Assembly: GCF_015689335.1 (NCBI RefSeq)
Contig: NZ_CP065053.1
Coordinates: forward strand, 2,666,001-2,730,000
Reading direction: 5' to 3'
Source: Massilia antarctica
GTDB lineage: Bacteria > Pseudomonadota > Gammaproteobacteria > Burkholderiales > Burkholderiaceae_D
DNA length: 64,000 nucleotides
Positions 20,138-64,000 of this stretch are shown one piece after another. The position numbers and the translations under genes are program-made. Below the pieces are notes generated by a model. That model made no database searches and was not told the DNA's origin. It saw only the letters and a program-made list of their open reading frames with translations. Each line of letters opens with the position of its first letter. Position 1 is the stretch's first letter.

Positions 20138-20213
20138 TGGTGGCCCGGGGCGGAATCGAACCACCGACACAAGGATTTTCAATCCTCTGCTCTACCGACT
20201 GAGCTACCAGGCC
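20138..20213 (-). tRNA. tRNA-Phe (GAA), copy 1
   Basis: 76 nt with encoded CCA. Acceptor GGCCTGG / CCGGGCC, D-arm AGCTCAGTCGGTAGAGC, anticodon loop TTGAAAA giving GAA, T-arm GGTTCGATTCC. Its sequence is identical to the second copy 157 bp away. Confidence 0.95.
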
Positions 20214-20260
20214 AAGTACATCTACAACATTCGCCCCCCGAGGGGCAACTCCAACAAACA

Positions 20261-20282
20261 AAAACGCCACCCTGAGGCGGCG
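20261..20282 (-). terminator. Probable terminator between the two tRNA-Phe genes
   Basis: CGCCACC / GGCGGCG stem with one A-C mismatch, with a T run on the minus strand (plus-strand A run 20260-20264). It follows the upstream tRNA-Phe copy and is a degenerate version of the terminator at 20102-20129. Confidence 0.65.
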
Positions 20283-20294
20283 AAAATGAATTCT

Positions 20295-20370
20295 TGGTGG
20301 CCCGGGGCGGAATCGAACCACCGACACAAGGATTTTCAATCCTCTGCTCTACCGACTGAGCTACCAGGCC
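20295..20370 (-). tRNA. tRNA-Phe (GAA), copy 2
   Basis: 76 nt with encoded CCA, base-for-base the same as copy 1 by reading. The repeat of tRNA plus terminator indicates a tandem duplication of about 157 bp, with divergence limited to the spacer. Confidence 0.95.
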
Positions 20371-45189: not shown

Positions 45190-45253
45190 GTGCCGTCCGG
45201 ATTCCAGAAACGTCAGATAGGGAGTCCGCGCGCTGCTGCGCGTCGGATACCCC

Positions 45254-45458
45254 CTCTGTGCTGGACCTGAGAGATTCGCCGGCAACGCGCGATGCGTGGA
45301 CGGTTTGCTCCTTCGGTGCACCGGATGACGAATTCCGGTGGCTCTTCAGAGTTCAAATGGGTTATCGGTCCTTGGGCCTGAGAGATTCCGGGGCGGTTGC
45401 TCCTTCGGCGCCGCCGGCATACAAGACCAGCTTGTAACCGACAGACTCTCCCGATAAC
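45254..45458 (-). promoter_or_regulatory. Tandem glycine riboswitch upstream of dadA
   Basis: Two glycine aptamers on the minus strand. Aptamer I is 45458-45361, bounded by a perfect P1 (CCGATAAC / GTTATCGG on the plus strand); aptamer II is 45351-45254, bounded by CAGAG / CTCTG. Both carry the hallmark internal motifs on the minus strand: GCCGAAGGAGCAA or CACCGAAGGAGCAA, and AATCTCTCAGG. The linker is 9 bases. Downstream, a GC-rich hairpin (45225-45247) lies before the dadA ATG at 45189, but no T run was seen, so control may be at translation. The tandem form is known for its role in glycine response and is often an ON switch for gcv genes. Confidence 0.93.
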
Positions 45459-45582
45459 GCCTTAGCATTGCGCTAAATATGCCATAAGCATATGTATGCA
45501 GAATACATCAGGAAATGACGCAAATACAACCATTTTTAGTGATAGGTGTTGTTTCCTCGACAATACCGACAGAGCGCTCGGT

Positions 45583-52031: not shown

Positions 52032-52276
52032 CTCACCTCTCTGCTGCAACGAACACAACGCTTCGTAGCAAACGGCAGAAGTAGTACAGAATAAGTTCTT
52101 TAACAATTAACAGTCGATAAGTGTGGGCGTTTGATGAAGGTGCCAACAAAGCGCAAGCGATGTTGAATACTTAAATTATCAAATGTTCACAAAAAAGAAA
52201 TTAGGCGCTTCGCAAGAAGTGGCCTGTCAGTATTTTGAGTGAGCGATCTGTCCGCAAGGACATTAAACAGAGATTG

Positions 52277-53809
<1,533 letters not shown>

Positions 53810-53896
53810 GAGTTGCACCGGCTATAGAGCCAATTTATTAAGCGTCCACTCTTATCGACTGTTGAATTTAGAAGAAACAGTAGCAGTGTCCAAGTC

Positions 53897-53973
53897 GGGG
53901 CTGTAGCTCAGCTGGTTAGAGCACCGTGTTGATAACGCGGGGGTCGTTGGTTCGAGTCCAACCAGCCCTACCA
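53897..53973 (+). tRNA. tRNA-Ile (GAT)
   Basis: 77 nt with encoded CCA in the 16S-23S spacer. D-arm AGCTCAGCTGGTTAGAGC, anticodon stem-loop CCGTGTTGATAACGCGG giving GAT, T-arm GGTTCGAGTCC. Acceptor has G1-U72. Confidence 0.96.
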
Positions 53974-53983
53974 CGTATTCCTT

Positions 53984-54059
53984 GGGGGATTAGCTCAGCT
54001 GGGAGAGCACCTGCTTTGCAAGCAGGGGGTCGTCGGTTCGATCCCGTCATCCTCCACCA
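53984..54059 (+). tRNA. tRNA-Ala (TGC)
   Basis: 76 nt with encoded CCA. D-arm AGCTCAGCTGGGAGAGC, anticodon loop TTTGCAA giving TGC, T-arm CGGTTCGATCCCG. Begins 10 bases after tRNA-Ile. Confidence 0.96.
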
Positions 54060-54297
54060 CTCTACTAATCTTGAAAGTACAAACGTAAGCAACACCGTCG
54101 GGTGAGATGTTTAGGTTTGGTCTTTTAGAGATTAAAGCTGTTTCGTTCTTTAACAATCTGGAAGAAGTAAAGTTTTAATCGTTTGGCCGACAGGTCAGAC
54201 GATGGGTAGTGATTGTATGTATCAAAACAAAGCAACAACGCTGTACTTTTTTATCACTGTAACGCTCTTTGATCTTCGGATCAGAGGCTAACGTTAT

Positions 54298-57175
<2,878 letters not shown>

Positions 57176-57323
57176 ATAACCTTAGCAGGTACAGAGATAA
57201 GAAATGCGCGTTGTGTTTTGTGCGATACGCACAATCACTACCCAAAGTAATACAATAAAACGATACTTCTTCCAGATTCAAGCTAGTGCTGCCCGGTCGG
57301 GAGCACCAAGCTGTACAAGTTAT

Positions 57324-57437
57324 GCCTGATGACCATAGTAAATCGGTACCACCCCTTCCCATCCCGAACAGGACCGTGAAACGATTTTACGCCGATGATA
57401 GTGCTGCAACCAGTGTGAAAGTAGGTTATCGTCAGGC
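57324..57437 (+). rRNA. rrf: 5S ribosomal RNA
   Basis: About 114 nt, GCCTGATGACCATAG to GTCAGGC, with ACCACCCCTTCCCATCCCGA and the GAACAGGACCGTGAAAC signature. The closing stem is GCCTGA / TCAGGC. Confidence 0.95.
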
Positions 57438-57699: not shown

Positions 57700-58872
57700 A
57701 TGAAACTTGTAAATCAAAAACTCGACTGGATACAGGCACTCAGAGGAATCGCCGTGATGGCTGTGATGCTCAGTCACGCGCGTTACTTTTTCCTCAGCAC
57801 CCCGGAATGGGGTGTGGTCGATAGTTGGCTCGGTCCGGGCGCCATGGGGGTGGATCTCTTTTTTATCATTTCCGGCTTCATCATGGTGTACACCACGCAG
57901 AAGTCGGACGGCAGCGTAGCGTCCAGCATCGATTTTTCCATCAAGCGCTTCGCCCGCATCTGGCCGGTGTACGCCGTCGCCACGATTGCCTATGTCATCT
58001 TAGTCAAGGATGGCATGGCGTATTTTGCCGAGCCGGGCCGTTGGACGATATTGCTGAAAAGTCTGGTGCTCTTTCCGCCCGTCCGTTCGGACGTACCGTT
58101 TTTCGGTTTTACCCTGCCGCTGGCCTGGACGCTGGCATTCGAAGTCTATTTCTATGCGGTTTTTTGCATCAGCATGCTGTTCGGACGCGGGCGCTGGCTT
58201 GCCTTGTGTGCCTGGATGCTCGCCACGGTCGTTGCCATTCCGCTCATCGAGCACAACCATGCTTTTAACGTGCGCACCAATTTCAACTTCAGCTTCGACT
58301 ATTTCAACCTGATCACCAATTCCATCATCGTTGATTTCATGGCTGGTGTCGGAATTGCCCATATCTACCTGGCGCGAAATCTGCGTTTGAGTAGCCGCAT
58401 TCTGTGCCTTAACCTGATGTGGGTGAGTATCGGCTTTGCCGTATGGTGCAACTACACGACGGCGGCAGACTTTCACGGACCGACGAAATGGGGATGGTTG
58501 CTTGCGCTGATGGTACTGTGCATTGCGCTGGCCAGCAAAACGGTCAATCTGGCGCCGCCGCGTTTCCTGGTTTGGCTGGGCACCATTTCCTATTCGGTGT
58601 ACCTGTTCCATACCTTGGTCCAGTTCGTGCTCAGCCGCTGGCTGGACGAGCATGGCATCCCTGCTCAAGCGTGGGGACGCGTATATATTACGACCCTGTT
58701 CGCGATTCCGGTCGCGGCACTCTCGCACCACTATCTGGAAGTGAAGCTCGGTGGCGCCACGCGCGACCTGCTGGACCGCATGGCCGCACGTTTTTGGAAA
58801 CCGGCGGCGGCAACTGAGGAGGAATCGACAGCGCTAGCGCAACCGGTACCGCTGCGCAAGCGCAGCGCCTGA
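57700..58872 (+). CDS. Acyltransferase-3 family (OafA/YrhL-like) membrane protein
   Basis: 390 residues from ATG at 57700 after CGGAGAAG. About ten transmembrane segments. Signature start LDWIQALRGIAVMAVMLSHA (catalytic His), then GVDLFFIISGFIMVYTTQ and SFIKRFARIWPVYAVATI-like DFSIKRFARIWPVYAVATIA. Such proteins O-acylate surface sugars (O-antigen, exopolysaccharide, peptidoglycan). Substrate unknown; no surface-polysaccharide genes are adjacent. Stops 12 bases from the stop of the convergent retron reverse transcriptase. Confidence 0.93.
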   Translation: MKLVNQKLDWIQALRGIAVMAVMLSHARYFFLSTPEWGVVDSWLGPGAMGVDLFFIISGFIMVYTTQKSDGSVASSIDFSIKRFARIWPVYAVATIAYVILVKDGMAYFAEPGRWTILLKSLVLFPPVRSDVPFFGFTLPLAWTLAFEVYFYAVFCISMLFGRGRWLALCAWMLATVVAIPLIEHNHAFNVRTNFNFSFDYFNLITNSIIVDFMAGVGIAHIYLARNLRLSSRILCLNLMWVSIGFAVWCNYTTAADFHGPTKWGWLLALMVLCIALASKTVNLAPPRFLVWLGTISYSVYLFHTLVQFVLSRWLDEHGIPAQAWGRVYITTLFAIPVAALSHHYLEVKLGGATRDLLDRMAARFWKPAAATEEESTALAQPVPLRKRSA

Positions 58873-58884
58873 CCCAGCCGCGCC

Positions 58885-60804
58885 TTACCACTTGAGCGTG
58901 ATCGCGCTCCAGACCAGGGCAATAAACAGGAACCACCCCCAGCGCGGTCTGCGGAACATGGCCGATTGCAGCACGATCGCCGCCATGCAGACGGACGGCA
59001 GAATGCGTTGCGTGGCCAGCGCAAAAGCGCAAACAAGTGCAAGCTGCACCGCGATCGCCACCCGAAAATTGTTATCGCCATCCGGTTTGCCGGTATGGGC
59101 CGCATTGGCCGGAACATCGTCTGCCGGTGGCGGGTGAAGCGCTGCGGCCGGCGTCACGGCACGCGTATCCGCAGCCACGGGCTTTTCCATGTTGACGCGA
59201 GTCGGCGACGCCTCGGCCGCCTTGCTCGCCTTCTTTTCCGCTGCCAGCTGCGCGGCGGTTTTTTCCAGTACCGGCGCTGACGCCAGGGTGGCTTGCCACC
59301 ATCCGTCCCACGGTGCCTTGCCCTGGGCCGACAGCGCCCGGAACGCGCTGCTGCGCTTCGACTGTGTCAGCTTCATGTCGACGCCGGCCACTCCCCACCG
59401 CGCCCGCGCGGCGCGCACGCGCACCAGCAGCGGCAAGCCCTTGGCCGGATCGACCATGCGGATGAACTGCGCGTATCCTTCCAGCGCATCGATGACATTG
59501 GTATTGCCGTTCCACTGCTTGCCCTCCGGACCATCCTTTTCGAGCTGGAACAGCGTGGCGCGAAAACGCCGCAGGGTCTCGCGTTCGAGCGAGGGCTTTT
59601 GATTGACCACGATCCCGGTCACCATCTGGCGCTGCGCGTCGCGCATCACATGCTGCTTGTCGGGATGCGGCGTGAAGCCCTCGTCGATGACGATCTGCTT
59701 GGCGCGCCACAGCAGCTTGCCGGCCAGTTTGCGCGCATCGGCGTCGCCCGAAAACGTCAGGTCGTCCGCATAGCGCGTGTACTTGAAACCCAGCTTGGCC
59801 GCGCAAGCCTGCAAACGCGCATCGAGCCGCCTGCACAAAATATTGGTCAACGCCGGACTGCTTGGCGCGCCCTGCGGCAAGGCGCGCGATCCGTGCGCGA
59901 CAAAAAACGTCTCGCCATCGATGCGCACTTCGTCGGTCGCCGCTTCGGTACACAGCAGCGCCAGGACGGTTGCCAACTGCTCGCTGTAGCCCAGCTGCGC
60001 AAACACGCCTTTAATGCGCGGCATGCCGATCGACGGGAAAAAATTCTTGAGATCCAGATTGATGACCACCGCCTGGCCGACGTGCGGCGCCGCGTTGCTG
60101 ACGATCGAGCGGCCCGGCACAAAGCCGTGCGCCGCCTGGTGCAGCGGCGCACGCGCCAGCACGTTGTCGAGCACCCAGTATTGGGCGCGTTTCAGGCGCG
60201 GCATCGGCGCCGAGATAATCCGTTCGCCGCCGGTCTTCTTGGGCATGGCGAAGCGCCGGTAATGGCTGATCCGCGAGACGCGCCGCTCGAACGCCAGGAA
60301 GCGCAGCTCCGACAAGGTGATGCCCATCGCCTGCGCCAGTTGGTCCGCCTTGTGCAGCACCGGCATGGCCAGTCCGGCCAGTTTTCCGGCGTCGCTGTCG
60401 GCACGACCGAGGCCACCCGACACGCCCGCGCCCAGATACAGCACTTCGTGTTCGCGCCGCTGGCGCCACGCTTGCGCCTTCTCGAAGCGCACCAGCGCGC
60501 GCTTCTGGCGCGTTTCCTCGCGCCGCGCCTTGGCCTTGGCCATGCGCTCCTTGCGCAGCATGCGCAACGCCGCTTCGGGATTTTGCAGGTGATGCAGCTC
60601 GCTGCCCAGCTTCTGCAAGGCTTGCGTGAGTTCCGTTTCGCGCCGGATCAGGTCCGCTTCGACCGAGGGCTGGCCGCTGTCGGCCGGCCAGAAGCCCAGG
60701 CGCTGCATCTCGGTCAGCACGACTTCTTCTTTGGAGCTGGTGCGTATGCGCTCGTACAACTGCGCGCGCGTCAGTTCGGAGGGAGAGGGAGTAGGGGAAG
60801 TCAT
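58885..60804 (-). CDS. Retron reverse transcriptase with N-terminal extension and C-terminal membrane segment
   Basis: 639 residues from ATG at 60804. The first 180 residues are a charged helical extension (Lys/Arg/Glu-rich, 80-120). RT palm: INLDLKNFFPSI (catalytic D251), LPQGAPSSPALTNIL (309-323), TRYADDLTFSG with YADD at 345-348. Retron-specific marks: NAAPH (237-241; the NAxxH motif) and VTG (395-397). After the thumb there is a Pro/Ala-rich linker (510-575) and two or three hydrophobic helices (about 581-597, 603-616, 620-637). It makes msDNA from the msr-msd RNA just upstream. The usual retron RT lacks the membrane tail, which is the odd feature here. Confidence 0.93.
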   Translation of the reverse strand: MTSPTPSPSELTRAQLYERIRTSSKEEVVLTEMQRLGFWPADSGQPSVEADLIRRETELTQALQKLGSELHHLQNPEAALRMLRKERMAKAKARREETRQKRALVRFEKAQAWRQRREHEVLYLGAGVSGGLGRADSDAGKLAGLAMPVLHKADQLAQAMGITLSELRFLAFERRVSRISHYRRFAMPKKTGGERIISAPMPRLKRAQYWVLDNVLARAPLHQAAHGFVPGRSIVSNAAPHVGQAVVINLDLKNFFPSIGMPRIKGVFAQLGYSEQLATVLALLCTEAATDEVRIDGETFFVAHGSRALPQGAPSSPALTNILCRRLDARLQACAAKLGFKYTRYADDLTFSGDADARKLAGKLLWRAKQIVIDEGFTPHPDKQHVMRDAQRQMVTGIVVNQKPSLERETLRRFRATLFQLEKDGPEGKQWNGNTNVIDALEGYAQFIRMVDPAKGLPLLVRVRAARARWGVAGVDMKLTQSKRSSAFRALSAQGKAPWDGWWQATLASAPVLEKTAAQLAAEKKASKAAEASPTRVNMEKPVAADTRAVTPAAALHPPPADDVPANAAHTGKPDGDNNFRVAIAVQLALVCAFALATQRILPSVCMAAIVLQSAMFRRPRWGWFLFIALVWSAITLKW

Positions 60805-60862
60805 CGTGTCCTGGTCTCGCAAGGAACACCACGGAAAACACTGTCGGGAAAACGCAAACTAC

Positions 60863-61086
60863 ACAAGCACGGCAGGATAATCATCGAAGGGCCTGCAGGA
60901 CTGGAGCGCTCCACTCGACGCCGTACCGCACCAGTAGCGCTGATCGGCTTCAGGGAAGCCAAACCGTGTCGCGCTACTGGTGCAGGTACGGCACAGTGAA
61001 GAGCGTGCCAGTGACGCGTGGGAAGAGCTGACAACGTGGACGGCGATCCGCCGTCCGGTTTGCAAGAGCCATCCCGCCGTGCTTGT
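60863..61086 (-). ncRNA. Retron msr-msd RNA
   Basis: On the minus strand between the WHSWIM gene and the RT. a1 (61086-61071) and a2 (60878-60863) are 16-bp complementary (CAAGCACGGCGGGAT / ATCCTGCCGTGCTTG plus one A-T; one G-U). Inside: an msr hairpin GGACGGCG / CGCCGTCC (61056-61038, 3-nt loop); a long msd stem of 20 pairs with one bulge (60971-60991 with 60921-60940), whose loop holds GGCTTC / GAAGCC. The RT start is 59 bases after a2. After a1 the sequence GGCTCTTGC is where the branching guanosine of the 2'-5' link is expected. The architecture is complete. Confidence 0.88.
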
Positions 61087-61170
61087 TGATGCGAGTATAA
61101 CAGGTGAATTCCGGGCTCCTCAAGCATTGGTTTGAATATGTGGGTTAGTGAAGATGCGTGCGCCGCGCGC

Positions 61171-62817
61171 TCACGCGGCGTCACGCCTGGCCTGGTCCAT
61201 GCGCAGCACGAGCATGTGCACGCACGGCCCCTTGTGCATGCGGTTCTGGGTGTAGTGGTTGCACTCGCAGCTGCCGTCGACGATGCGCCGGTCGGCGTCG
61301 AGCCGCAGCATGACCTGGTACGGCCGGCCGTTTTCCTTGCTGCGCGCACGCAGGCGCAAGCCGCCCTCTGGCAGCGCTTCGCTGGCCTGCTCGGAGAGGC
61401 TTTGCACCGCCAGCAGGGTCGCCGCCTTTTCTTCGATCGCGCTGGCAAAGCGCAGCACATCCAGCGGCAACGGTTCGCGCGACAGCTCGCGCAGGCGGTA
61501 CACGCCTTGCGTCAGGTCGTAGATCACGCGTCCAGCTTGGGTGTACAACGTGAGCGCGCTTTCGACGATGGCGCGCGTCAGGCCGGTGTCCGTCGCCAAC
61601 TGGTCGGCGGTGGCGAACCAGCGCTGTCCCAGCGCCGCGAAGACGCGCGTCTTGCTATCGTCATCGACGGCGCCGCGCGGCGCCAGCAGGTCGAACTGGC
61701 CTGCCCGTGCCCAGTCGTTGGCGGTCCAGCCGGACAGGCCCAAGGTGAGCTGCATGTCCGGCAGGTTGGCGATCCAGAAGCTTGGCATGCCGCTGCCCAT
61801 CAGGTGCACGGTAAAGCTGTGCGCCACCGGGATCAGGCGTTCGAGCAGCATCAGGCGGCGGCGCCCCCAGATGCGGATTTCTTCGGCCGCATTGCCCTGG
61901 TAGATCGAGCGGCGGCACACCAGTTCATCGTTCCACGGCTCGAACAGCGCGCGAATCGGTTCACCCGGCGTGAGCACGAAGCGGATCGAGCGCGGGCCGA
62001 CTCTTTCCTTCTTGTGGCGCAAAAGGTGGCAGAAATTGTGCACATCCATCGGATGCAGATCGAGCCTGCGCGCCGGCAGGTTCATTGCGCTGCTTACTTG
62101 CAGAAAGCCGCGCACCCAGGTTTCGGGCACGTCGATCTTCTCTTCCTTGAACGATGGATCGCCAGCGGTAGCGACCTGGAAGCCGCTCGGATCGATCGCC
62201 AGTTGGGTCGTTTTATAGTCGCGGATCTTCTGGAATTCGCCGTACAACCCTTCGGAGTAGTCGACATTGGTGGTGCCGCAGGCGAAGTCGCCCACGCGGT
62301 CGAACACATTGTGACTGCAACTGAGCGAGGCGTAACTCGATTCGTCGCGGCTGAAGCACTCGAAGAACACGCGGTCGGGGTGCACCGTGATCACCGGGTC
62401 GAGCACCACCCAGGTGTCGAAATTGGCCTTGTATATATAGTCGAAGTATTTGGCCTGGGCCGCGGCGAAAGGCTTGAGGATGATGCTCTTTTGCGCCCGC
62501 AGGGCCTTGAGCTCCTCGCTCAATGGCGCCATGCGCGCGCGCAGGTCCGCATTGCGGTCGATCAGTTCCGCCAGCGCCGGGTCTTCGTTCTGGGCGCGCC
62601 ATGCCAGGTAGGCGGTTTTGTCTGGCGCCTGGTAGCGCTGGTCGGCCACCACCACGTCGTGCAGCGCGGAGATGGCTTCGCGGAAGGGAATGTGCTTGTT
62701 CAGCTGGGCGACGAAATGGGTCGGCGGGCGCAGGGTGTCGGGCGCGAAGCGCATCTCGGTGCTTGAGGCGCTGTTGCTGACGGTGCTGGAGCCGTAGTAG
62801 CGGTATTCGAATTTCAT
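61171..62817 (-). CDS. Retron-associated winged-helix SWIM zinc-finger protein
   Basis: 548 residues. C-terminal SWIM finger C517-x-C519-x12-C532-x-H534 (DGSCECNHYT; KGPCVHMLV). Before it a winged-helix-like domain (about 400-470; ATADQLATDTGLTRAIVESA, then YDLTQGVYRLREL). The N-terminal 380 residues are an unassigned domain. The start overlaps the stop of the HEAT gene by the ATGA arrangement (62814-62817), so translation is coupled. This protein together with a HEAT/ARM protein and RT fits the type XIII retron layout as I recall it; it may be the effector or sensor. Confidence 0.85.
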   Translation of the reverse strand: MKFEYRYYGSSTVSNSASSTEMRFAPDTLRPPTHFVAQLNKHIPFREAISALHDVVVADQRYQAPDKTAYLAWRAQNEDPALAELIDRNADLRARMAPLSEELKALRAQKSIILKPFAAAQAKYFDYIYKANFDTWVVLDPVITVHPDRVFFECFSRDESSYASLSCSHNVFDRVGDFACGTTNVDYSEGLYGEFQKIRDYKTTQLAIDPSGFQVATAGDPSFKEEKIDVPETWVRGFLQVSSAMNLPARRLDLHPMDVHNFCHLLRHKKERVGPRSIRFVLTPGEPIRALFEPWNDELVCRRSIYQGNAAEEIRIWGRRRLMLLERLIPVAHSFTVHLMGSGMPSFWIANLPDMQLTLGLSGWTANDWARAGQFDLLAPRGAVDDDSKTRVFAALGQRWFATADQLATDTGLTRAIVESALTLYTQAGRVIYDLTQGVYRLRELSREPLPLDVLRFASAIEEKAATLLAVQSLSEQASEALPEGGLRLRARSKENGRPYQVMLRLDADRRIVDGSCECNHYTQNRMHKGPCVHMLVLRMDQARRDAA

Positions 62818-64000
62818 TGTGGCCCCCGCAGGTTCGCGTGCGCACGCGGCGGCTCGATCGTCATCACCGCCGGCAGCGCCGGAAAGCGCTCCTGGATCGC
62901 GCGCAATCCCTCGATGTACTGCGCCTTGTCGGCGATGGCGACGGTGAGCACCTGGCGCGCGAACAGGCGCGCGACAAAAGCGGCAATCGCCTCCGATGCC
63001 TGTGCCTGCGCGCGCAGGAAGTCGAGCACGCGGTTCTTGACCACCCGGCCGCGGTTGACCTGTGACAGCACGTTCAAAAAGTACGGTTCGAGGCGTTCCA
63101 GCTTGGACAGGTCGCCGGCGCTTGCGCTGGCGAGCCAGCCGCTGACGAACAGCTGCATGTTGGCGGACGGATGCTGGCTAAGTTTGAGCATGTATTCGGT
63201 GACGTCGGCGACGTCGAAATGGGTCGTGAGCATGGTGCGCCCGAAGCGCTGGACCTCGGGATCGAGGTGGTCGCACAGGCTTACCAGCAGGGACGGATTC
63301 CAGTCTTCGCTGCCGCATTGCTTGCTGAAGAACTCGCGCGCGAAAGCGCGAGTATCGTCCCACGTGCTGTCGAGCAGGCGCAGCGCCGCTTCCATCTGGG
63401 TGCGCACCAGGGCTGCGTGTTCGGTAAAGGCCGCGCAGGCCCAGCGCCGCACGCTGGCGTTTTCGTTATGGCCGAACTGCGCCCACTCGGCCACGCTGAA
63501 CTGCGTGTTGGCGAAGCGCGGCAGCATCTGGGCACCGAGCAGTTGCGCGCCCTTGCTGCGCGCGGCCAACAGGCGCACCAGCAGCGCGCGGTCGAGGTGG
63601 TCGGCGCCCGAATTGAGCGGTCCGAGGATCCATGCGATCAGGTCCGCATGCACGCCGTCCGCCGGTTCGCTGTGGAAAAGGGTATCGAGCAGCAAAGGCA
63701 GCAGGGTGGCGCGGAACGTGGCGTCGCCTGGCGCGATGCGCTGCAAGGCGCCGTCGATGGCGCGCCGCACGTCCGCATCCGGGTGGGTGCAGAACACGGC
63801 GAACAGCAAGGCTTGACTCGCGAGCATGTGCTCCGGCAGTGCGCTGAACAGCTTGATGCCGACCGCGCGCACACCAGCATCCGCTTCCTGCAGCAGCGCC
63901 GCCAGGGTAGCCGGCGGAATGGCGCCCGCCGGCTCGGCGTGGCGCAGCAGCCATTCGCCGGCGGCGATGCGCACGCTGGCAAGCCGGTGCGAGAGCAGGG
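62814..64000 (-). CDS. Retron-associated HEAT/ARM-repeat protein, N-terminus cut by the window edge
   Basis: The frame is open from TGA at 62814 through base 64000, so at least 395 residues, with the start beyond the window; the internal GTG at 63974 is not the start, because HEAT-like sequence (LLSHRLASVRIAAGEWLL) continues upstream of it. Repeating pairs of helices: AGVRAVGIKLFSALPEHML, HPDADVRRAIDGALQRIAP, NENASVRRWACAAFTEHAAL and LDPEVQRFGRTMLTTHFD. An all-helical scaffold for protein or nucleic-acid contacts. First visible gene of the retron operon. Confidence 0.85.
   Translation of the reverse strand, partial: LLSHRLASVRIAAGEWLLRHAEPAGAIPPATLAALLQEADAGVRAVGIKLFSALPEHMLASQALLFAVFCTHPDADVRRAIDGALQRIAPGDATFRATLLPLLLDTLFHSEPADGVHADLIAWILGPLNSGADHLDRALLVRLLAARSKGAQLLGAQMLPRFANTQFSVAEWAQFGHNENASVRRWACAAFTEHAALVRTQMEAALRLLDSTWDDTRAFAREFFSKQCGSEDWNPSLLVSLCDHLDPEVQRFGRTMLTTHFDVADVTEYMLKLSQHPSANMQLFVSGWLASASAGDLSKLERLEPYFLNVLSQVNRGRVVKNRVLDFLRAQAQASEAIAAFVARLFARQVLTVAIADKAQYIEGLRAIQERFPALPAVMTIEPPRAHANLRGPQ

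Follow-up and report, generated by a model that had tools for sequence, protein, structure and literature searches.

A type XIII retron of Massilia antarctica with a predicted clamp-like SWIM protein and a hydrophobic reverse transcriptase tail

Introduction

Positions 58885-64000 of the DNA analysed here (64,000 nucleotides of the Massilia antarctica contig NZ_CP065053.1, hereafter the window) hold what, judged from its genes and RNA, is a complete type XIII retron. It is arranged on the minus strand in the order WGR/HEAT, SWIM, non-coding RNA (ncRNA), reverse transcriptase (RT). An earlier sequence-only reading had named this type, and the best PADLOC profile for each of the three proteins (RT_XIII, SWIM_XIII and WGR_XIII) bears it out. 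Retron typing, type XIII included, reportedly comes from Mestre and colleagues in 2020. In this locus the RT ends in a hydrophobic tail and the SWIM protein is predicted to contain a fold like that of sliding clamps.

Retrons are presented as abortive-infection systems in which the complex of RT and multicopy single-stranded DNA (msDNA) senses phage and an effector acts (PMC13405049, in part), and their components and priming have been described (PMC8989520, in part). The locus studied here is very probably anti-phage, going by its sequence.

The reverse transcriptase and its descent

58885..60804, minus strand: type XIII retron RT, 639 amino acids (RT_XIII 5.6e-187; retron RTs nearest in the PDB; type XIII tree)
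59080..59208, minus strand: disordered RT linker, residues 533-575 (AlphaFold2 [AF2] predicted local distance difference test [pLDDT] below 50 except at residue 552)
58891..59079, minus strand: hydrophobic, membrane-like three-helix RT tail, residues 576-638 (hydropathy; AF2 helices)

The open reading frame (ORF) of the RT spans 58885-60822 on the minus strand, with a probable start at the ATG at 60804. Retron RTs are marked by the motifs NAxxH, YADD and VTG, and all three, as previously read from the DNA, are in the translation (NAAPH, YADD, VTG). The RT_XIII match reaches 620 bits, against 342 bits for the next-best profile, and covers profile positions 8-460 of 469; it ends before the linker and tail, at residue 536 as numbered on a scanned protein with 6 extra N-terminal residues. 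By sequence the closest solved relatives are retron RTs (Ec86 at 4.5e-63), group II intron RTs doing no better than 3.4e-07, and a Foldseek fold search again placed retron RTs nearest (Ec86, 7v9x, 1.8e-23). The group II maturase profile TIGR04416 gave 49.9 bits against a cut-off of 300. Profile and fold comparison favour retron RTs, and a group II intron, diversity-generating retroelement (DGR) or defence-associated RT (DRT) was therefore rejected; with the check for group II and DGR kinship negative, the earlier assignment to the retron RTs stands.

A tree of type XIII RTs only, without group II or DGR outgroups, was built with IQ-TREE from the cores without the tail (468 columns), with long-branch warnings for several Bacteroidota rows. 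A branch with support of 99/98 sets the proteobacterial rows apart, and the four host groups can likewise each be split off at a single branch, with three changes in all, the minimum possible. L144 (a short contig), L170 and L171 form a deep branch of loci with RT and SWIM genes, where tblastn found no WGR/HEAT gene and R1, our covariance model (CM) of the ncRNA, gave no match next to the genes.

The tail, which the sequence-only reading had not reported, was found here. In the AF2 model it consists of helices 576-598, 601-617 and 622-638, all hydrophobic, whose pLDDT averages 80-88 per block starting at residue 581. Its distribution was measured as the maximum 19-residue hydropathy within the last 130 residues of 71 complete type XIII RTs. 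All 43 proteobacterial RTs (602-709 amino acids) carry it, at 1.70 or more, whereas none of the 28 Bacteroidota RTs does (461-526 amino acids; 1.22 or less). This count leaves aside L090, L145, L156, L167 and L172 (no RT match), L162 and L169 (cut RTs), L146 and L147 (no SWIM match at that cut-off) and L041 (not in the run). The linker is variable in sequence while the tail is kept throughout the 43 proteobacterial members. Judged visually, alphaproteobacterial rows show two hydrophobic segments in the tail, betaproteobacterial ones three. Among the 120 RT homologues listed (of 4105), 109 exceed a hydropathy of 1.6 in the last 90 residues, nine more have a similar tail by eye at 1.16-1.60, and two lack one (P0089 and P0095); none of 120 SWIM proteins passes 1.6 over the same length.

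Going by hydropathy and helix prediction, the tail is probably embedded in the membrane. A single gain fits the sequence data, because the proteobacterial RTs form one branch side and all carry the tail while no Bacteroidota RT does. Many Bacteroidota type XIII RTs have aromatic C-termini (e.g. DWWSIW or GWKLW), and a W-rich stretch (e.g. WWQ) precedes the linker in proteobacterial ones.

The ncRNA

60863..61086, minus strand: retron ncRNA, msr-msd (R1 match 60878-61070; covariation)
61071..61086, minus strand: a1 repeat, pairing with a2 (96.4% of cells paired; two-sided changes in 7 of 16 pairs)
61062..61066, minus strand: CTTGC, unchanged across all 25 aligned copies
61038..61056, minus strand: msr hairpin (100% of cells paired)
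60918..60994, minus strand: msd main stem and terminal hairpin (60971-60994 pairs with 60918-60940)
60863..60878, minus strand: a2 repeat, pairing partner of a1
61094..61123, minus strand: promoter-like TTGAGG-18-TATACT with TG, ending 7 bases before a1

The RT and SWIM genes are separated by 366 bases, which fold at -162.7 kcal/mol (z -5.55), a value that none of 100 shuffles equalled. An ncRNA with a1/a2 repeats and an msd hairpin lies in this stretch beside the RT gene, the arrangement that characterises a retron. Both the repeats and the long msd stem had been seen from the letters, and both held: a1 and a2 form 16 pairs, one of them G-U in this strain, and 95.9% of main-stem cells are paired, with two-sided changes in 11 of 22 pairs.

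Covariation was measured on 19 Oxalobacteraceae copies out of 29; the alignment omitted the eight loci of g32 (L062-L069) as well as L042 and L043, whose core is identical to that of our locus (L002 in the genome reading). Over these 19 related loci 97.7% of cells are paired. Two-sided changes occur in 24 pairs against 15.3 in shuffles and in 109 cells against 32.4, and four of five measures exceed all 500 shuffles. Structures shifted by 1-3 columns pair only 33.5-46.0%, a comparison that favours the true structure, which was drawn from the same 19 sequences. From this anatomy, production of msDNA by the locus can be expected with high confidence. The G of CTTGC is a candidate for the 2'-5' priming guanosine. 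The ncRNA may have its own transcription start, because the promoter-like site ends just ahead of a1, although two such sites were found in the region with 1.2 expected by chance. With 150 of 1252 first-look candidates scored, this was the sole R1 match in the M. antarctica genome and no second ncRNA copy was found.

The SWIM protein and its clamp-like fold

61171..62817, minus strand: SWIM protein, 548 amino acids (SWIM_XIII 2.7e-227, residues 1-544)
61714..62718, minus strand: two-domain region resembling PCNA, residues 34-368 (structure prediction with fold comparison)
62425..62616, minus strand: coiled-coil-like helical insertion, residues 68-131 (AF2 model, alignment)
61492..61662, minus strand: winged-helix region, residues ~386-442 (DprA_WH 0.0078, under cut-off; AF2 helices and strands)
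61207..61320, minus strand: SWIM zinc finger, residues 500-537 (Pfam SWIM; CxC..CxH)

The zinc finger claimed by the sequence-only reading has the CxC..CxH pattern, and 54 of 55 family members match Pfam SWIM at E<=1, but in this protein the match reaches 17.9 bits against a cut-off of 19.6. In the predicted model, residues 34-368 form the two-domain fold of a sliding clamp. The match extends over 218 residues in two domains, and clamp-like chains make up every row among the matches listed. For residues 34-368 these lists give clamp-like chains exclusively, the remaining parts of the protein being barely covered. The model suggests that the protein probably has a real sliding-clamp fold; that it acts by loading on DNA is doubtful at present.

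The WGR/HEAT protein

62814..64000, minus strand: 3' part of the WGR/HEAT gene, 1035 amino acids, continuing in the genome (L002 5815-8922) (WGR_XIII, HEAT_2)

The SWIM gene and the upstream WGR/HEAT gene share 4 bases (62814-62817), in agreement with the coupling of two co-directional genes noted earlier, and the latter does cross the right edge of the window; its full length was read from the genome. The full protein matches WGR_XIII at E=0 (1107 bits, residues 1-1026). It had been taken for a HEAT-repeat protein; repeats are present (HEAT-ARM_XIII 2.5e-28, HEAT_2 5.9e-10), but its family is WGR_XIII. Pfam WGR gave no match at E<=0.1. It is the least conserved component, at 27-31% against 52-55% for SWIM.

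SWIM genes without a reverse transcriptase

At nine loci a long gene immediately adjoins a distant SWIM gene of 442-478 amino acids (419 in one truncated by a stop). Five are from Bacteroidota (L146, L147, L178, L179 and L180; long neighbour of 1029-1037 amino acids) and four from Oxalobacteraceae (L175, L176, L177 and L181; 886-930 amino acids). Neither an RT (tblastn, E<=1e-3) nor an ncRNA (R1) was detected in the stretches fetched for these loci or for L174, where a SWIM paralogue also occurs. Three of the SWIM proteins were scanned and match SWIM_XIII at 1.7e-53 to 7.4e-73. DUF6493, DUF7824 and DUF7825 are present in all seven long neighbours scanned of the nine, and a WGR domain heads all four Bacteroidota ones scanned (L146, L147, L178 and L179).

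These comparisons suggest that SWIM and a long WGR-type partner formed an older module, which the retron would have taken over. The helical insertion is present in 18 of 18 retron SWIM proteins aligned (of 78 at hand) and in none of the nine RT-free ones, and we infer that it may be a docking part. The pairs of SWIM and DUF6493 genes are also a possible stand-alone system.

Tandem ncRNA copies in Bacteroidota

R1 was built from 25 copies, seven of them from L038-L040, which match by construction. Of 44 proteobacterial loci, 43 gave a single copy; the exception, L090, has no RT either. The ncRNA adjoins the genes in 26 of the 37 Bacteroidota loci searched, with two to four copies at 17 of the 26; without L038-L040, two or more copies occur in 14 of 23. 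Left out of the 26 are L145, L156, L171 and L172, whose matches were weak, cut or misplaced, and L041, L144, L146, L147, L167, L169 and L170 gave no R1 match.

Examples are L040 (9651-10537), L157 (5696-6393), L161 (5871-6668) and L166 (6293-6939), where the copies differ in msd stems and a1/a2. Mean identity between sister copies, over 40 within-locus pairs, is 0.62 in the middle of the msd, 0.79 in the first 75 bases and 0.80 in the last 45. The pairing run of a1 averages 9.80 with its own a2 (n=44) against 6.79 with that of a sister copy (n=80; Mann-Whitney p 2.3e-10, on cells that are not independent). Some tandem copies are weak, at 19-67 bits (the second of L039 and several of L148, L149, L154 and L165), and some are without a clear a1/a2 of their own. 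CTAC/GTAG words occur in 36 of 85 unique msd stems, against 9.3 in mononucleotide and 20.6 (sd 3.8) in dinucleotide shuffles, an enrichment of little weight, as it ignores relatedness and the stems were delimited by a basic folding rule, which in a few copies picked an incorrect helix.

Distribution and surroundings

57700-58872: acyltransferase gene, between the ribosomal RNA (rRNA) operon and the RT gene (Acyl_transf_3 5.8e-28)
57325..57437, plus strand: 5S rRNA that closes the convergent rRNA operon (52276-57437), outside the retron

SWIM matches were found in 29 of 392 genomes of the same family and in 7 of 17 listed genomes of the same genus, the own genome counted in both, and the nearest named relatives are Massilia species. 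The M. antarctica genome has a single SWIM gene of this kind. Further matches came from a phylum sample (4 of 299, own included), family f2 (11 of 299), family f31 (3 of 199; placed in Alphaproteobacteria from the near-identical Methylobacterium record L077), a Bacteroidota sample (11 of 395, five of them only of the weaker RT-free kind) and the L038 family, Saprospiraceae (27 of 248). The Bacteroidota label rests on L038-L040 and on samples drawn around the L038 genome.

Phage were rejected as carriers, SWIM having no match in 50,697 phage records, and so were plasmids, with one match in 72,556 records, on a Methylobacterium replicon of 2.8 Mb. A Saprospiraceae SWIM query added one distant Streptomyces match among the plasmid records and had no match in the viral contigs scanned. 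MoxR-vWA conflict systems were dropped as a home of SWIM paralogues, as the text of eLife 52696 contains neither SWIM nor DUF5691.

The sequence-only reading had placed the retron beside an rRNA operon; the convergent plus-strand operon is indeed adjacent, with the acyltransferase gene separating it from the RT gene. Leaving g32 aside, 18 of the 21 Oxalobacteraceae loci have an oppositely oriented 5S gene after the RT gene within the length fetched, at about 50 bases to 4.6 kb; of the three exceptions, L045 and L056 stop at contig ends and L052 has none in 5.8 kb. The eight g32 loci gave no such gene over the lengths fetched. Genes on the other side of the retron vary between clades. A long vertical stay at the rRNA operon, with upstream rearrangement, would fit, and so would repeated insertion there.

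In M. antarctica the retron is flanked by two rRNA operons, the 5S ending at 57437 and a further 16S starting about 17.8 kb rightward (L002 18265). Beyond the window a sensor-kinase-like gene (L002 8997-11783; HATPase_c 1.9e-11), preceded by a response regulator (Response_reg 9.8e-13), ends 74 bases ahead of the retron operon, and such a gene adjoins the retron in all seven g1 loci examined. In L140 and L141 the order differs, with ncRNA and RT ahead of WGR/HEAT and SWIM. Elsewhere in the window are two adjacent glycine riboswitch aptamers (45246-45463, minus strand) and a tandem pair of tRNA-Phe genes (20138-20370).

Proposed mechanism and rival explanations

From the anatomy and descent set out above, we infer the following function. 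The RT would copy the msd into a hairpin msDNA and remain bound to it; in Proteobacteria, the RT tail would anchor this complex at the inner membrane, or sense the membrane. RT-msDNA would keep both the WGR/HEAT protein and the clamp-like SWIM protein inactive, the latter possibly by way of its coiled coil. A phage product attacking or binding the msDNA would free the pair, which would then act on DNA as a clamp-like block and halt replication, resulting in abortive infection. That SWIM and WGR/HEAT are the effector pair is fairly likely, with some support from the RT-free SWIM and DUF6493 pairs, although confidence is reduced, the WGR domain being the one link between the RT-free partner and WGR/HEAT. 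The explanation as a whole, a type XIII retron with a clamp-like SWIM and WGR/HEAT effector under RT-msDNA control, stands at about even chances. Putting every element together gives a speculative picture, and one that is rather unlikely to hold in full: a guard based on a sliding clamp, with RT-msDNA tethered to the membrane in Proteobacteria, a coiled-coil hold, WGR/HEAT as DNA loader, an older RT-free module captured, and the msd as an exchangeable recognition cassette, multiplied in Bacteroidota arrays, which could let a single RT display several sensors.

A number of results weigh against this reading. The clamp likeness is at fold level only, with 7-13% identity among the matches listed; a sequence-profile search of solved structures with SWIM gave no PCNA entry at E<=1, and PCNA is absent among the 25 Pfam families listed, out of 38, for the 55 SWIM family members. 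The model is of middling quality (pLDDT 73.2, predicted template modelling score 0.64), its first domain is weaker than its second, and it represents one SWIM sequence as a single chain, from which a ring is not derivable. The argument for membrane insertion of the tail consists of hydropathy and helix prediction. The fifth covariation measure, further pair types, gave 44 against 44.3 in shuffles. In two Bacteroidota proteins scanned, the DUF6493-type partner matches WGR_XIII over the first ~100 residues only, and the one Oxalobacteraceae partner scanned has no such match. PADLOC, Pfam and NCBIfam scans reported no nuclease or other catalytic domain in SWIM or WGR/HEAT, and because of this the killing step is a guess.

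The lack of sequence support for the clamp also speaks for a different division of labour, in which WGR/HEAT is the toxin and SWIM a DNA- or RNA-binding antitoxin or adaptor without clamp function, its PCNA likeness being a shared beta-alpha arrangement. The low conservation of WGR/HEAT relative to SWIM would be expected of an arms-race partner. However, the clamp match spans two domains and recurs in every row among the matches listed, and in RT-free relatives a long partner gene still adjoins the one for SWIM; we regard this alternative as unlikely, if the most serious of the rivals. The hydrophobic tail could instead be the toxic part, a membrane-disrupting module with SWIM and WGR/HEAT as its sensor or lock. 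It sits behind a disordered linker and persists in every proteobacterial member while the linker varies, and transmembrane proteins are counted among retron effectors (PMC13405049, in part). Nevertheless, no Bacteroidota RT has the tail while most keep SWIM and WGR/HEAT, so it is not a general effector, and the number of hydrophobic segments differs between alpha- and betaproteobacterial rows; this makes a tail toxin improbable.

A domesticated retron that is inherited vertically, serves in housekeeping (e.g. at rRNA operons or in replication) and has no part in phage defence would agree with the orderly RT tree, in which the four host groups need no more than the minimum of changes, with the recurrent downstream 5S gene outside g32, and with the high conservation of SWIM. 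Its patchy spread, even among listed genomes of the same genus, does not agree with this, and the msd stem has diversified, and been multiplied in Bacteroidota, which suggests a changing opponent. We consider a housekeeping role somewhat less probable still than a tail toxin. Decay or inactivity is very improbable, as the three ORFs are open, the RT motifs intact and the RNA pairs kept by covariation among relatives, and no point was found in its favour.

If the proposed mechanism is correct, a retron RT would be membrane-bound, a sliding-clamp fold would be used against phage replication, and one RT would serve several msDNAs. With their differing msd stems, tandem ncRNAs would yield single-stranded DNA in a naturally multiplexed way, of use for retron editing tools, and would bear on the question of why msd sequences vary.

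Comparison with known systems

Retron-Ec86 (Eco1) provides the best sequence and fold match to the RT core (7v9x), but its RT chain has 314 residues and the likeness is confined to that core. The Ec86 effector differs from the proteins of this retron. The type IX retron Kva2 likewise has two accessory proteins, one of them winged-helix, beside its RT and ncRNA, and its effector is given as a HEPN RNase (PMC13405049, in part); no HEPN family was found in the proteins of this retron with Pfam, NCBIfam and PADLOC at the cut-offs used.

The PCNA, 9-1-1 and beta sliding clamps share the two-domain fold predicted for SWIM residues 34-368, but SWIM adds the helical insertion, the winged helix and the SWIM finger, and no sequence similarity to them was found. 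The RT-free pairs of SWIM and DUF6493/DUF7824/DUF7825 genes share a homologous SWIM beside a gene of 886-1037 amino acids. They differ from the retron in that the partner resembles WGR/HEAT in the WGR domain only and the SWIM protein has no insertion.

Closest are the type XIII retrons as defined in PADLOC (RT_XIII, SWIM_XIII, WGR_XIII and HEAT-ARM_XIII), with the same three proteins and operon form, except that the RT profile match stops before the linker and tail found here. Among the CC-licensed PubMed Central papers listed in searches, no title or abstract opening describes the tail, the clamp-like fold or the ncRNA arrays, though an earlier description is possible. The type itself is already known; its variant character here lies in the RT tail, the predicted clamp-like fold, the insertion specific to retron SWIM proteins and the ncRNA arrays.

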